NCBI RefSeq assembly: GCF_033547095.1
Contig: NZ_CP137852.1
Location: forward strand, 558,001-622,000
Reading direction: 5' to 3'
DNA length: 64,000 nucleotides
Source: Sediminicoccus rosea
GTDB lineage: Bacteria; Pseudomonadota; Alphaproteobacteria; Acetobacterales; Acetobacteraceae
Made by a program: the position numbers and the translations under genes. Under the pieces are notes generated by a model. The model saw only the letters and a program-made list of their open reading frames with translations, searched no databases and had not been told where the DNA came from. Each line of letters begins with the position of its first letter. Within the stretch, counting starts at the first letter, position 1. Shown here in pieces: positions 21,092 to 26,161 of the stretch.

Positions 21092-21774
21092 TCAATCCCC
21101 CTCCCTTGCGCGTCACCGCGACGGCCCCCGCGCCCCAGCGCGAAAAGCTCGCGGATGCGGCCTATGCCGCGCTGAAGGCCAGCATCCTGGAGGGGCTGCT
21201 GCCGCCGGGGGTGGAGACCGCCGAGCAGGCCATCGCCGACCAGCTCGGCATGAGCCGGACGCCGGTGCATGAGGCGGCGCTGCGCCTGCAGCATGAGGGG
21301 ATGCTGCAGGTGCTGCCGCGCAAGGGCGTGCGCGTCCTGCCGCTGGACCCGGAGGATCTGCGCCAGACCTATGAGGTGCTGATCGCGCTGGAGGGCGCGG
21401 CCGCCGCGCTGCTGGCGATGCAGGCGCAACCCGCTGCGCTGGCGGCGCTGTCGCGCGCCACGGCGGAGATGGGTGCCGCGCTCACGGCCGGCGACCGCGC
21501 CGCCTGGGCGGCGGCGGATGACCGCTTCCACCGCGCTTTGGTCGAGGGCTGCGGCAACCCCAAGCTCGCGCGCCTCGCCGCCACGGCGACCGACCAGGCG
21601 CAGCGCGCCCGCGCGCTGACCGCCGCGCGCCGGCCGGAGCCGGTGGTGTCGGCCGAGGAGCACGCCGCCATCCTGGCCGCGCTCCAGGCCGGCGATGCCG
21701 AGGCGGCACGGGCCGCCACCGCCGCGCATCGCGCGCGGGCGAGTGCGGAAATCCTGGCGGTGCTGCGGGGGTGA
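21085..21774 (+). CDS. GntR-family (FadR subgroup) transcriptional regulator
   Basis: A 229-residue cytoplasmic repressor or activator. The winged helix lies at residues ~20-85: AYAALKASILEGLLPPGVE, AIADQLGMSRTPVHEAALRLQHEGML as the recognition region, and KGVRVLPL as the wing. The C-terminal all-helical FCD domain contains the Asp/His metal-site pattern (DDRFHRALVEGCGN, EEHAAILAALQAGD, AAHRAR). The start at 21085 is favoured by GGAAG five bases upstream, but the ATG at 21073 is also in frame because of a 12-bp duplication. Position between the divergent ttuC-Bug operon and the downstream glycerate kinase suggests it controls tartrate/glycerate use. Confidence 0.88.
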   Translation: MEVNPPPLRVTATAPAPQREKLADAAYAALKASILEGLLPPGVETAEQAIADQLGMSRTPVHEAALRLQHEGMLQVLPRKGVRVLPLDPEDLRQTYEVLIALEGAAAALLAMQAQPAALAALSRATAEMGAALTAGDRAAWAAADDRFHRALVEGCGNPKLARLAATATDQAQRARALTAARRPEPVVSAEEHAAILAALQAGDAEAARAATAAHRARASAEILAVLRG

Positions 21775-21817
21775 CGCCCTGGCCACGCCCGCCCATGATG
21801 GCGCAAAGGACACGCCC

Positions 21818-23104
21818 ATGACCCACTGGACCGACGCCACCGCCACCGCCGCGCTGCGCGACCTCTATGCCGCCGCGGTGCGCGCGGCCGATCCGCTGGC
21901 CGTGCTGGCCGCGCACCTGCCGCAGCCGCCGAGCAAGGGCCGCGTCCTCGTCGTCGGCGTCGGCAAGGCGGCGGCGAAGATGGCGCAGGCGGTGGAGGCG
22001 GCCTGGGCGCATCTGCCGCTCTCGGGCCTGGTCATCGCGCCCCATGGGGCGGGGCTGCCGCTGAGCCGCATCGCGCTGCGCTTCGGCAAGCACCCGACGC
22101 CGGATGCCGGTGGCGCCGCCGCGGCGGCCGAGATGCTGGCCATGGTCCAGGGGCTGACGGAAGACGATCTCGTGCTGGCGCTGATCTCGGGCGGCGGCTC
22201 CTCGCTCTCCACGCTGCCGGCGCCGGGGCTCTCCCTTGAGGACCTGATTGCCACCAACCAGGCGCTGCTCGCCTCGGGCGCGGTGATCGGGGAGATGAAC
22301 TGCATCCGCAAGCATCTTTCCGCCTTCTCGGGCGGGCGGCTGGCAGCGGCGGCGCATCCGGCGCGGGTGGTGACGCTGGCGATCTCGGACGTGCCGGGGG
22401 ATGACCCGGAGGTCATCGCCTCCGGTCCCACCGTGGCGGACCCGACAAGCTTCGCCGAGGCCCGCGCCATCGTGGCCCGTTACGGGATGGAACTGCCGCC
22501 GGCCGTGGTGGCGCATCTCGCCGCGGGGGTGGAGGAATCGCCCAAGCCGGGCGACCCCCGCCTCGCGCGTGCGGAGCTTCGGATGATCGCCACCCCCATG
22601 ATGGCGCTGGCCGCCATGGCGGAGGCGGCGCGGGGGATGGGCCTGACGCCGCTCATCCTGGGCGATGCGCTGGAGGGCGAGGCGCGGCATGTCGGCACGG
22701 TGCTGGGCGGGATGGCGCGCAGCGTGGCGGCGCATGGCCTGCCGTTGCCGGGCCCCTGCGTGCTGCTCTCGGGCGGTGAATGCACGGTGACCATGGCCAA
22801 GGGTGCGGGCGGCGCGGGCGGGCGGAACACCGAATGCCTGCTGGGGATCGCGCTCGCGCTGAATGGCGCGCCGGGCGTCTGGGCGCTCTGCGCCGATACG
22901 GATGGCATCGACGGCAAGTCCGCGCATGCCGGCGCCATCGCGGGGCCGGGCACGCTGGCGGCGGCGCGGGCGGCGGGGCTCGATCCGCAGGGGCTGCTGG
23001 CGGCGCATCGCAGCCTGGATGTGTTCGCCGCATCCGGCGGGCTGCTCACGCCCGGGCCGACGCTGACCAATGTGAATGACGTGCGGGCAATCCTTGTAGC
23101 TTAG
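21818..23104 (+). CDS. ttuD: Glycerate 2-kinase / TtuD (MOFRL family)
   Basis: A 428-residue member of the GckA/TtuD family. It is often annotated hydroxypyruvate reductase but biochemically is usually an ATP-dependent glycerate 2-kinase. Motifs: VLVVGVGKAAAKMAQAVE, ALISGGGSSLSTLPAPG, NCIRKHLSAFSGGRLA, TLAISDVPGDDPEVIASGPTV, and the MOFRL C-terminus CVLLSGGECTVTMAKGAGGAGGRNTE with ALCADTDGIDGKSAHAGA. Glycerate formed from tartrate would be converted to 2-phosphoglycerate. The ATG at 21818 follows AAAGGA. It starts 44 bp after the GntR gene and precedes pyruvate kinase, an order that mirrors ttuD-ttuE of Agrobacterium. Confidence 0.9.
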   Translation: MTHWTDATATAALRDLYAAAVRAADPLAVLAAHLPQPPSKGRVLVVGVGKAAAKMAQAVEAAWAHLPLSGLVIAPHGAGLPLSRIALRFGKHPTPDAGGAAAAAEMLAMVQGLTEDDLVLALISGGGSSLSTLPAPGLSLEDLIATNQALLASGAVIGEMNCIRKHLSAFSGGRLAAAAHPARVVTLAISDVPGDDPEVIASGPTVADPTSFAEARAIVARYGMELPPAVVAHLAAGVEESPKPGDPRLARAELRMIATPMMALAAMAEAARGMGLTPLILGDALEGEARHVGTVLGGMARSVAAHGLPLPGPCVLLSGGECTVTMAKGAGGAGGRNTECLLGIALALNGAPGVWALCADTDGIDGKSAHAGAIAGPGTLAAARAAGLDPQGLLAAHRSLDVFAASGGLLTPGPTLTNVNDVRAILVA

Positions 23105-23120
23105 CAATGATAAGCTACAA
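23094..23120. promoter_or_regulatory. Perfect inverted repeat over the ttuD stop codon
   Basis: TTGTAGCTTA at 23094-23103 and TAAGCTACAA at 23111-23120 form a perfect 10-bp inverted repeat with a 7-bp spacer that includes the end of the TAG stop. It is AT-rich in a GC-rich genome. It could be a factor-dependent terminator hairpin or an operator for the helix-turn-helix encoded 44 bp downstream. No T tract follows. Confidence 0.65.
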
Positions 23121-23128
23121 AACCGTCA

Positions 23129-23157
23129 TTGGCGTTGCGACTTACCTTGTGTAAGTT
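23129..23157 (+). promoter_or_regulatory. Candidate promoter overlapping a second inverted repeat
   Basis: ACTTAC (23140-23145), a 5-bp spacer and GTAAGT (23151-23156) form a perfect inverted repeat. TTGGCG (23129-23134) and TAAGTT (23152-23157) are 17 bp apart and could be a -35/-10 pair. Transcription would then begin at about the ATG at 23164. The overlap of operator and promoter would suit repression by the encoded helix-turn-helix; this is inference. Confidence 0.4.
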
Positions 23158-23163
23158 AAGCCC

Positions 23164-24813
23164 ATGCGCGACCCTGCCCTTGAAGACATCCTTGCCCGCC
23201 GCGGTGCCGTCACCCGCATCGCTTCGGCGCTCAACATCTCCACCGCCGCCGTCAGCCAATGGAAGCGCATCCCGCCGGATCGCGTGGCCGATGTCGCGCG
23301 CCTGTTCAACCTGCCGCCCGAGCGGCTTGCGCCCCCCGGCACCAAGCCGGCCCCGGCCCCCGAAGGATTGCCCCGCATGGCCTCCCGCATCCCGCTGCGC
23401 CGGCACCGCCGCACCAAGATCATCGCCACCCTCGGCCCCGCCAGCGCCACGGTCGAGATGATCGAGAAGCTGTTCCGCCAGGGCGCCGATGTCTTCCGCC
23501 TCAACTTCAGCCACGGCACGCATGAGGACCACGCAAGCCGCATCCAGATGATCCGTGAGGTGGAGCGCAAGACCGGCCGGCCCATCGGAATCCTGGCCGA
23601 TGTCCAGGGGCCCAAGCTGCGCGTCGGCAAATTCGCCGCCGGGCGCGTTCAGCTCACCACCGGCGCCCGCTTCCGCCTCGACCTCAACCCGACGCCGGGC
23701 GATGTGAAGCGCGTCCAGCTGCCCCACCCCGAGATCATCAACGCGGCCCGCATCGGCACCACGCTCCTGCTCGATGACGGCAAGCTGAAGCTGCGCGTGG
23801 TGCGCCAGGTGGCGAATGACCACCTGGAGACCGAGGTGGTGGTGGGCGGCGCCCTCTCCGACCGCAAGGGCGTGAATGTGCCCGACGTGGCGCTCCCCAT
23901 CCCGGCACTGACCGAGAAGGACCGTGCCGACCTCGATTTCGTCCTGCCGCTCGGCATCGAATATGTCGGCCTCTCCTTCGTGCAGCGGCCGGAGGATGTG
24001 GCCGAGGCCAAGGCGATCGCGGCCGGCCGCGCCTGGATCATGGTGAAGATGGAAAAGCCCCAGGCCGTCGAGAATCTCGATGCCATCCTGGAGCTCTGCG
24101 ACTGCGTGATGGTGGCGCGCGGCGACCTCGGCGTGGAAATGCCGACGGAGGAGGTGCCGCTGGTGCAGAAGCGCATCGTCCGCGCCGCCCGGCAGCTCGG
24201 CAAGCCCGTGGTGGTCGCGACCCAGATGCTGGAGAGCATGATCACCGCGCCCTCGCCGACCCGCGCGGAGGCGAGCGACGTCTCCAACGCCGTCTTCGAC
24301 GGCGCCGATGCGGTGATGCTCTCGGCCGAGACGGCGGCCGGGCAATACCCGCTGGAAGCCGTGAACATCATGGACCGCATCGTCGGTCGGGTGGAGCAGG
24401 ACCCGGGCTGGCGGGCCCAGACCGATGCGAACCGCCCCGCGCCCGAACCCACCAGCGCCGGCGCCATCGCCGCCGCCGCCGCCCAGGTGGCGCATACGGT
24501 GCACGCCCAGGTCATCGCGACCTTCACCAGCACCGCCTCCACCACGCTGCGCGTGGCGCGCGAGCGGCCCGACTGCCCGATCCTCGGCCTGACGGCGGAG
24601 CTGCAGGCGGCGCGGCGGCTCGCCGTGGTCTGGGGGGTGCATCCGCTGGTGGTTCAGGATATCCACTCGATGACGGAAATGGTGGCGCGCGCCAGCCGGG
24701 CCGCGCAGCAGGAGGGTTTCGCCCGCCTCGGCGAGGAGCTGGTGGTGACAGCGGGCGTGCCCTTTGGCACACCGGGCACCACCAATGCGCTCAGGGTGGC
24801 CACGGTGAAGTGA
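23164..24813 (+). CDS. pyk: Pyruvate kinase with N-terminal Cro/YdaS-like HTH extension
   Basis: The open frame encodes 549 residues. From Met72 (ATG 23377) it is a normal pyruvate kinase of 478 residues that makes pyruvate and ATP from phosphoenolpyruvate. RRTKIIATLGPAS, VFRLNFSHG, the active-site Lys region WIMVKMEKPQAVENLD, MVARGDLGVEMP and TQMLESMI are all present. Residues ~11-57 before it (GAVTRIASALNISTAAVSQW, then VADVARLFNLPPERL) look like a Cro/CI or YdaS-type DNA-binding helix-turn-helix, with no stop codon in between. GAAGGA nine bases before the internal ATG could allow separate translation of the enzyme. Two inverted repeats lie just upstream. It follows ttuD by 59 bp, matching ttuE in the Agrobacterium tartrate operon. 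Confidence 0.85.
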   Translation: MRDPALEDILARRGAVTRIASALNISTAAVSQWKRIPPDRVADVARLFNLPPERLAPPGTKPAPAPEGLPRMASRIPLRRHRRTKIIATLGPASATVEMIEKLFRQGADVFRLNFSHGTHEDHASRIQMIREVERKTGRPIGILADVQGPKLRVGKFAAGRVQLTTGARFRLDLNPTPGDVKRVQLPHPEIINAARIGTTLLLDDGKLKLRVVRQVANDHLETEVVVGGALSDRKGVNVPDVALPIPALTEKDRADLDFVLPLGIEYVGLSFVQRPEDVAEAKAIAAGRAWIMVKMEKPQAVENLDAILELCDCVMVARGDLGVEMPTEEVPLVQKRIVRAARQLGKPVVVATQMLESMITAPSPTRAEASDVSNAVFDGADAVMLSAETAAGQYPLEAVNIMDRIVGRVEQDPGWRAQTDANRPAPEPTSAGAIAAAAAQVAHTVHAQVIATFTSTASTTLRVARERPDCPILGLTAELQAARRLAVVWGVHPLVVQDIHSMTEMVARASRAAQQEGFARLGEELVVTAGVPFGTPGTTNALRVATVK

Positions 24814-24837
24814 GCCGCCCCAACGGAGACGAGCCTG

Positions 24838-25200
24838 ATGACGCGTATCTTCCTGGCCGCCTGCCTCGCTGTCTCGGTGGCCGCCGCACCGGCCCAGGCC
24901 CAGCGGAGCGGCACCTATGACGTCACGGGCACCAATCCGGATGGCAGCGCCTATACCGGCACGCTGGAGCTGGAGCAGATCGGCCTGCTCTCCTTCCGCC
25001 TGCGCTGGAACATCGGCCCGGACGTGATCGAGGGCGTGGGGATGGTGAGCGGCCTCAGCTTTGCCACCGCCTTCAGCCTGGGTGGGGGCAGCAGCCCGAG
25101 CATGGGCGTCTATGAGCTGCGCCCCAATGGCCAGCTGGTGGGTCAATGGACCACCATCGGCGCCTTCGCCGCCGGCACCGAGACGGCAACGCCGAGATAG
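24838..25200 (+). CDS. Small secreted hypothetical protein
   Basis: A 120-residue protein with a clear Sec signal peptide (MTRIFLAACLAVSVAAAPAQAQ). The mature part of about 98 residues is glycine-rich with alternating polar and hydrophobic residues: YDVTGTNPDGSAYTGTLELEQ, FRLRWNIGPDVIEGVGM, YELRPNGQLVGQW. This suggests a small all-beta, possibly lipocalin-like, periplasmic domain. I do not recognise a family with certainty. The ATG at 24838 follows GGAGACGAG. It starts 24 bp after pyruvate kinase on the same strand, and repeat copy B follows its stop. Confidence 0.75.
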   Translation: MTRIFLAACLAVSVAAAPAQAQRSGTYDVTGTNPDGSAYTGTLELEQIGLLSFRLRWNIGPDVIEGVGMVSGLSFATAFSLGGGSSPSMGVYELRPNGQLVGQWTTIGAFAAGTETATPR

Positions 25201-25204
25201 GTTT

Positions 25205-25310
25205 GGCGCCCTCGGCGCCTGTCGCGCGCTCCGCGCCTTTGGCTTCGCCGCGCCGAGGCGGCGCGGGGCCATGCGCCCGGTTGGGCGGCGCCGGCCGCGT
25301 TGCGGCCGGT
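25205..25310 (+). repeat. Stop-codon-linked palindromic repeat, copy B
   Basis: Same architecture and orientation as copy A, starting 5 bp after the TAG of the small secreted protein gene: GGCGCCCTCGGCGCC, a GCGCGCTCCGCGC palindrome, TTTGGCTTCGCCGCGCC, a variable middle, GGTTGGGCGGCGCCGG and GGCCGC-GTT-GCGGCCGG. Here it separates convergent genes. Confidence 0.82.
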
Positions 25311-25363
25311 TTCTCCGAAGGTCGCCTATGATCTGATCCGGTGCGGGCTGCGCCTGCCCGCCG

Positions 25364-26161
25364 CTACCCCAGGGCCCAGCTCGGCTTGCGCTTCTCGCGG
25401 AAGGCGGCGATGCCCTCGGCGGCCTCGGGGCCGGCGGCGGTGCGGCCAAAGGCCTGGGCGCCGGCCTCGGCATAGCCCTCGGGCGAGAGTGGGCCCAGCG
25501 CGGCCAGCAGCTTCTTCGTCTCCGCCAGCGCGCCGGGCGCGCCCTCCAGCAGCTGCGCGATGCTGGCAGCCACCAGCGCATCCAGGCCCGCACGATCCGG
25601 CGCCACCTCATGCACCAGGCCGCGGCGGACGGCCTCCTCGGCGGTGATCACGCCACCCTCGAGCACCATCCGCGCCGCATTTGGCCGCCCCATGCGGCGG
25701 GCCAGCCAGGGCAGGATCTGCGCGGGGACCAGGCCGCGCCTTGCCTCGGGCGCGGCGAAGCGCGCATCGGCGGTGGCGAAGGCGATGTCGGCGCTGCACA
25801 GGAAGCCGAGGCCGCCGGCATGCGCCGCGCCTTCGACGGCGGCGATCACCACCTGCGGCAGGGCGGAGATCTCGGCATAACGGGCGCCGAGGCGCCGGTT
25901 GCGGAGCTGCATCGCGGCCAGCCGCTCCTCCGGCGTGCCGGCGACGACCTCGGTCAGGTCGAGCCCGGCGCAGAAATGCCCGCCGGCGCCGCGGAGCACC
26001 ACGATGCGCGCCGTGGCATGGCCGCGCAGCTCGTCGAGCAGTTCGTCCAGCGCCTCGCCCATCCCGCCGCCAATGGCGTTGCGGCGGGCGGGGCGGTTCA
26101 GCGTGACGTGAACCACCGGGCCCTCGCGCTGGACGAGGACCGGGGGTTCGGCCTGGCTCAC
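25364..26161 (-). CDS. Enoyl-CoA hydratase/isomerase family protein
   Basis: A 265-residue crotonase-fold protein. VHVTLNRPARRNAIGGGMGEAL is the N-terminal signature. VVLRGAGGHFCAGLDLTEV forms the first oxyanion-hole element, and AAVEGAAHAGGLGFLCSADIAFATADARFAAPEARRGLVP the second. The usual catalytic Glu of hydratases (at the position before G in EG/GE..P) is not obvious; Glu at APEARRG may serve. The specific acyl-CoA is unknown. It begins with GTG at 26161 overlapping the rne stop (GTGA), or with GTG at 26170, so it is coupled to rne translation, an odd pairing. Confidence 0.85.
   Translation of the reverse strand: MSQAEPPVLVQREGPVVHVTLNRPARRNAIGGGMGEALDELLDELRGHATARIVVLRGAGGHFCAGLDLTEVVAGTPEERLAAMQLRNRRLGARYAEISALPQVVIAAVEGAAHAGGLGFLCSADIAFATADARFAAPEARRGLVPAQILPWLARRMGRPNAARMVLEGGVITAEEAVRRGLVHEVAPDRAGLDALVAASIAQLLEGAPGALAETKKLLAALGPLSPEGYAEAGAQAFGRTAAGPEAAEGIAAFREKRKPSWALG

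Follow-up and report, generated by a model that had tools for sequence, protein, structure and literature searches.

A Cro/YdaS-type helix-turn-helix fused to pyruvate kinase in Sediminicoccus rosea and its relatives: a probable repressor of its own gene

We analysed a stretch of 64,000 nucleotides from Sediminicoccus rosea (hereafter the window), in which a single stop-free open reading frame (ORF) at positions 23164–24813 of the plus strand encodes a protein of 549 amino acids, followed by a stop codon. The protein joins a Cro/YdaS-type helix-turn-helix (HTH) domain (residues 1–58, positions 23164–23337) through a variable, low-confidence linker (residues 59–80, positions 23338–23403) to a complete pyruvate kinase (PK) with its barrel and C-terminal domains (residues 82–549, positions 23407–24810). 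An initial annotation of this DNA had described an uninterrupted HTH-to-PK frame of 549 residues, and this was borne out. Two palindromes of the form CTTA-N7-TAAG lie directly upstream of the gene. From these features and their conservation, we infer that HTH-PK is probably an enzyme that binds and represses its own gene, acting as a 'trigger enzyme' with a single target.

The HTH domain was recognised by profile comparison. When residues 1–71 were searched alone, the Pfam profile P22_Cro (PF14549) matched residues 7–47 with an E value of 2.8e-9 and 37.0 bits, and on the whole protein the score was 33.1 bits, above the cut-off of 30.2. The YdaS profile (PF15943) gave 25.8 bits, under its cut-off of 30. 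A structure model, which the initial annotation had suggested as a check on the N-terminal residues, gave a helical N-terminal domain with a predicted local distance difference test score (pLDDT) of 86.7 and helices predicted at residues 4–10, 15–23, 27–31, 38–47 and 52–55; residues 11–57, given earlier as the extent of the domain, were thus a fair outline. The top match in the PDB was Xfaso 1 Cro (3bd1), with P22 Cro and YdaS also among the structural neighbours, and the HppE and HEPD/MPnS domains nearly equalled the Cro score. Across 25 fused HTHs, the recognition-helix stretch A28 A29 V30 S31 Q32 W33 (AAVSQW) was invariant. In the alignment of fused sequences, variation sat in the linker rather than in the HTH, and pLDDT was below 50 across residues 60–78 of the linker.

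The PK part was covered nearly end to end by its two Pfam domains, the barrel at residues 82–400 (PF00224, 381.6 bits) and the C-terminal domain at residues 434–545 (PF02887, 111.7 bits). It also scored 503 bits with the equivalog PK model TIGR01064, for which the cut-off is 306.4. Residues R112, N114, S116, K295, E297, D321 and T353, which we take to be the catalytic or active-site residues of PK, were invariant in 26 fused sequences. The nearest solved PK chain was 7oo1, and the loop TSTASTTLRVARERP of the fusion resembles the corresponding 7oo1 loop. Given the invariant catalytic columns and this loop, the PK part is likely to be enzymatic and to retain its ligand site intact. The fusion was the sole PK match in its own genome at E ≤ 1e-3.

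The fusion is not confined to this genome. In a draw of 200 genomes of the family, own genome included, we detected the full-length fusion in one frame in at least 26 genomes and at least 13 genus codes, the fused count being a lower bound; the search for HTH-PK fusions in Acetobacteraceae that the initial annotation had recommended was therefore productive. Fused genomes carried one PK match in 21 of 26 cases and two in the other five. An HTH-only profile built from the alignment of 25 HTHs was then used to scan genome contigs, which confirmed 96 relatives; the best 80 of the 96 were kept, leaving out the 16 weakest, and all 80 contained the in-frame HTH-PK fusion, with four of them cut by contig ends. 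Carriers were assigned to Roseomonas, Roseococcus, Rubritepida, Belnapia, Falsiroseomonas, Neoroseomonas, Siccirubricoccus and other genera, or simply to Acetobacteraceae, Rhodospirillales or Alphaproteobacteria. When the same HTH search was applied to 385 genomes of the class, an HTH joined to PK was found in the own genome only.

Conservation of the frame also disposed of two simpler explanations. A chance open frame in G+C-rich DNA was ruled out by the in-frame orthologues together with the ratio of nonsynonymous to synonymous differences (pN/pS), which for the HTH codons had a median of 0.43 in frame (400 pairs), while reading this DNA in its two alternative frames gave 1.15 (58 usable pairs) and 2.05 (53). 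The HTH as a separate, overlapping gene was ruled out as well: a stop between HTH and PK was absent from all 106 loci (26 from the family draw and 80 from the scan).

A PK tree was built from 78 rows, 54 of them fused and 24 unfused (3 fused rows without an anchor were dropped). Fusion state changed 8 times on this tree, compared with a shuffled mean of 20.7, and three of these changes were forced by well-supported branches. The 24 unfused controls consisted of 4 loci from the family draw and 20 that we picked. This pattern, in which the tree cannot separate gain from loss, could reflect a single gain close to the base of the Roseomonas group with several later losses, or else a few transfers. 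The initial annotation had named close relatives lacking the extension as a point that would count against it, and two such relatives, L026 and L031, do exist within the genus. In both, however, the HTH and both palindromes are absent, and the ribosome site and ATG of PK come almost directly after the upstream gene's stop. Because the whole stretch is missing, palindromes included, the difference looks like a cassette that is either present or absent rather than like a decayed non-coding extension.

The two palindromes are candidate operators. The first (op1, CTTAGCAATGATAAG, positions 23100–23114) overlaps the stop codon of the upstream gene, and the second (op2, CTTACCTTGTGTAAG, positions 23141–23155) ends 8 bp before the ATG; their centres are 41 bp apart. 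We scored palindromes by matches to the 8 fixed bases of CTTA-N7-TAAG at 88 distinct loci, obtained from the 106 fused loci by removing 18 duplicates. At −23/−24, the place of op2, 69 loci matched all 8 bases, 14 matched 7, 3 matched 6 and 2 matched 4, so that 83 reached 7 or 8. At −60 to −67, the place of op1, 68 of the 88 loci reached 7 or 8, and both palindromes did so in 64. Start-to-start spacing in these 64 loci was 41 bp in 29, 42 in 19, 40 in 6, 38 in 6, 39 in 3 and 37 in 1. By comparison, none of 1056 control windows 120–600 bp upstream scored 7. Within the window itself, five matches with at most one mismatch were found against 0.64 expected, a number reached in 0 of 100 shuffles.

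The palindromes are tied to the HTH, the two being present and absent together in the sequences compared: a palindrome matching 7 or 8 bases lay within 400 nucleotides of the PK part in 53 of the 54 fused tree rows and in none of the 24 unfused ones. They also stayed in place where the upstream gene differs, a DUF4147/MOFRL-type neighbour being recognised in 60 of the 88 loci. As evidence that the HTH binds palindromic operators in a sequence-specific way, this co-conservation is indirect.

A footprint of the 74 loci whose op2 lies precisely at −23 revealed promoter-like conservation around this palindrome. TAAGnT occupied −12 to −7 (T in 86% at −7), and a weaker TTGG lay at −35 to −32 (50–73% per column), 17 bp away. 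In the window, these correspond to a putative −35 box, TTGGCG (positions 23129–23134, plus strand), and a putative −10 box, TAAGTT (positions 23152–23157, plus strand), whose TAAG is the right arm of op2; the predicted transcript start is at about 23164. The transcript is thus probably leaderless, starting at the ATG, with its −10 box in the right arm of op2. The scarcity of Shine-Dalgarno (SD) cores before the fusion ATG (17 of 88 loci, versus 19 of 24 unfused PK starts) fits this view.

The distribution of exact sites suggests that the own gene is the single conserved target. In the 5.1-Mb own genome, CTTA-N7-TAAG occurred exactly three times, twice at the fusion gene and once on the 16.9-kb contig C2, compared with 11 times for a backward-read control pattern; allowing up to one mismatch, exact sites included, there were 36 sites versus 466 for the control. 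The surroundings of the third exact site resemble type I restriction genes, by eye only. The 25 other fused genomes contained 64 exact sites, of which 29 were at the HTH-PK gene, and 21 of these genomes had at least one there. Around the remaining 35 sites, similar neighbouring ORFs were found in five locus pairs only, none of them recurrent. In 15 unfused genomes, none of the 10 exact sites was at the PK gene.

We propose that HTHs paired via the PK oligomer would bind op2 and op1 of the promoter of their own gene. As op2 covers the putative −10 box, binding there would block RNA polymerase, and the gene would be repressed. In most species, 40–42 bp, or about four turns of the helix, separate op1 from op2, so that two HTH pairs, perhaps those of one PK tetramer, could bind on one face of the DNA. 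That a PK ligand (phosphoenolpyruvate (PEP), pyruvate or a sugar phosphate) alters DNA binding seems to us evenly balanced. The initial annotation had envisaged a tether of enzyme to HTH that links PEP/pyruvate flux to transcription. The tether stood, being found in at least 13 genus codes together with operator-like palindromes, but the flux link did not fare as well, since the palindromes argue for control of the own gene.

Three observations qualify this picture. The rarity of the pattern is due to composition and alone proves little, so the tie to the fusion gene rests on position and co-occurrence instead. The contrast in palindromes between fused and unfused rows includes just three independent pairs on well-supported branches and is therefore not a formal test. 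In addition, a strict sigma-70 consensus scan detected no promoter at the fusion gene, which counts against the putative leaderless promoter.

The reading closest to our own is an autorepressor that works by amount only, in which DNA binding would track the protein level, indifferent to PK ligands, and would buffer dose without sensing flux. It shares all of its evidence with the reading that we favour and differs in the ligand step only, and none of our results speaks directly against it. A single conserved target is what dose buffering needs, and the variable, low-confidence linker could uncouple the two domains; we rate this reading a little below an even chance. The HTH might instead mainly activate its own promoter, or op1 might activate and op2 repress, as in phage-type switches. 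Such an arrangement would suit the position of op1, centred 5′ of the putative −35 box, where activators can be placed. However, a protein bound over a −10 box normally blocks transcription, and it is the better-conserved op2 (83 of 88 loci, against 68 for op1) that includes the putative −10 box, while 20 of the 88 loci are without a good op1. We therefore regard activation as unlikely.

Two further alternatives deny the HTH a role on DNA as part of the fusion, or deny the fusion itself. The near-equal scores of HppE and HEPD/MPnS in the structure comparison would suit an HTH-like domain that lost DNA binding and became a structural or protein-contact cap, as the HppE/HEPD helical domain may be, with the palindromes belonging to another regulator. 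The co-occurrence of palindromes and HTH and the invariant A28–W33 stretch both speak against such a cap, which we consider more improbable still than activation. Alternatively, plain PK alone might be made from an internal start, the N-terminal frame being a leftover or a separate small repressor. An internal start with an SD core is indeed commoner at the junction than at control ATGs, and unfused relatives begin at the matching place (see below). Against this stand the 11 of 88 loci with no start in the 13 codons preceding the PK core, 11 more with a start lacking the SD core, and the absence of any stop separating HTH from PK in 106 loci, which together make it the least probable of the alternatives, and very improbable. 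Repression of its own gene by the fusion protein remains the reading that we favour.

A second product alongside the fusion is a different matter. An SD-like GAAGGA followed by the ATG of Met72 (positions 23362–23379, plus strand) forms a candidate second start for plain PK; the initial annotation had correctly placed GAAGGA nine bases 5′ of the ATG at 23377. In 66 of the 88 loci, the 13 codons ahead of the PK core include a start codon with an SD core, whereas such an SD core preceded 225 of 833 interior PK ATGs (27%). With a stricter core, the figures were 51 of 88 junction starts and 136 of 833 interior ATGs. Use of the internal start to make plain PK is plausible here and in many species, but not in all, given the loci without a start or core noted above. 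The earlier proposal that one gene yields both fusion and plain enzyme thus holds as plausible for this genome and fails as a general rule. Since the position of the internal start matches the start of unfused PK genes, the linker may be a former leader of the PK gene.

Among the neighbouring features, the upstream gene (positions 21695–23104, plus strand) encodes a DUF4147/MOFRL protein of the glycerate 2-kinase or hydroxypyruvate reductase type by Pfam; matches to the NCBIfam glycerate 2-kinase models were all under their cut-offs. We considered a two-promoter arrangement, in which read-through from this gene would give plain PK and the leaderless promoter would give the fusion. With the stricter core, an internal SD start was present in 41 of the 60 loci with a DUF4147/MOFRL neighbour and in 10 of the other 28, but this apparent tie vanished with the looser core (Fisher p 0.70 over 40 scorable fused tree rows; 4 independent pairs), and the idea was dropped. 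Directly downstream of the fusion gene, at 24838–25200, lies a 120-amino-acid ORF with an apparent signal peptide and no match in a Pfam search. An open frame of 836 amino acids (23101–25611, minus strand) runs antisense to the whole fusion gene and is probably a by-product of G+C-rich codon use.

Related HTHs were also observed before other metabolic proteins. Outside the window, the own genome encodes a second Cro/YdaS-type HTH joined to a TorD/nitrate-reductase-delta-like domain (C1:326299–326487, L002; Pfam YdaS and Nitrate_red_del). HTH-TorD-like fusions occur in other alphaproteobacteria (L123–L126, L128 and L130, and by eye L134–L136), with CATAG-N7-CTATG palindromes upstream of L125 and L126 and not clearly upstream of the others. 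In L129 (G215; 561 amino acids searched), a YdaS-type HTH accompanies YjeF_N and NAD(P)H-hydrate dehydratase domains (NAD(P)HX epimerase/dehydratase). A P22_Cro-like HTH precedes a zinc-binding dehydrogenase in L139 (G512), L140 (G430) and L143 (G329), with Pfam support for L140 and L143; by eye, we take this dehydrogenase to resemble crotonyl-CoA carboxylase/reductase. In L151 (G040, same family), a weak HTH (P22_Cro 20.4 bits, under the cut-off) stands before the carbamoyl-phosphate synthase small subunit, with a 17-bp palindrome upstream. As palindromes occur at some of these fusions and not at others, we claim no general rule, but the presence of related HTHs on other alphaproteobacterial metabolic proteins means that the principle may be wider.

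In its fullest form, the model describes a self-repressor gated by flux. One PK tetramer would hold both operators of the leaderless promoter, which are in helical phase, with a pair of HTHs on each, and the PK ligand state (PEP, pyruvate, or a sugar phosphate in the C-terminal domain) would open or close this grip, so that the state of PK sets its amount. Plain PK from the internal start would dilute the repressor in many species, and Cro/YdaS-type HTHs would more widely be a mobile autoregulation cassette before several alphaproteobacterial metabolic proteins (TorD-like, NAD(P)HX repair, zinc dehydrogenase and CarA). We offer this combined version tentatively, as possible but rather doubtful.

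PK, the last enzyme of glycolysis, is a control point of central carbon metabolism, usually discussed as run by allostery or by separate regulators. If the model holds, the state of the PK enzyme would be a direct input to its own transcription, coupling sugar metabolism to gene regulation in an unusually direct way. The system would be compact, with one protein, two sites and one target, and it is kept in cultured Roseomonas relatives, while natural knock-outs exist as close relatives without the HTH and without the operators. We found no report of an HTH-PK fusion in the open-access literature searched.

Several known systems offer points of comparison. The term trigger enzyme describes an enzyme that has acquired a DNA-binding domain (PMC8249747), and HTH-PK is built in this way. 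As in PutA, BirA and NadR, an active metabolic enzyme would be combined with a DNA-binding domain, and PutA is listed as a single-target regulator, as we propose for HTH-PK; none of the five E. coli trigger enzymes listed in the relevant passage is a PK (PMC8249747). Unlike the trigger enzymes described there, HTH-PK carries a phage Cro/YdaS-type HTH, and its apparent target is its own putative leaderless promoter. BzdR has a similar layout, with an XRE-superfamily HTH, a linker and a shikimate-kinase-like domain, and its DNA-binding domain alone represses its promoter (PMC3602430). However, BzdR is dedicated to regulating benzoate genes, and its ligand domain is kinase-like (PMC3602430), whereas in HTH-PK the active-site columns are conserved and the genome yields no other PK match. 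For Bacillus subtilis PykA, likewise a PK, a function outside glycolysis has been reported at the DNA level, in replication; in the excerpts available, an HTH is not mentioned, and PykA is said to act on replication proteins rather than on its own promoter (PMC9009071, PMC10143966). Finally, P22 Cro, YdaS and Xfaso 1 Cro are small stand-alone regulators, whereas HTH-PK joins a domain of this kind to one of the host's housekeeping enzymes.
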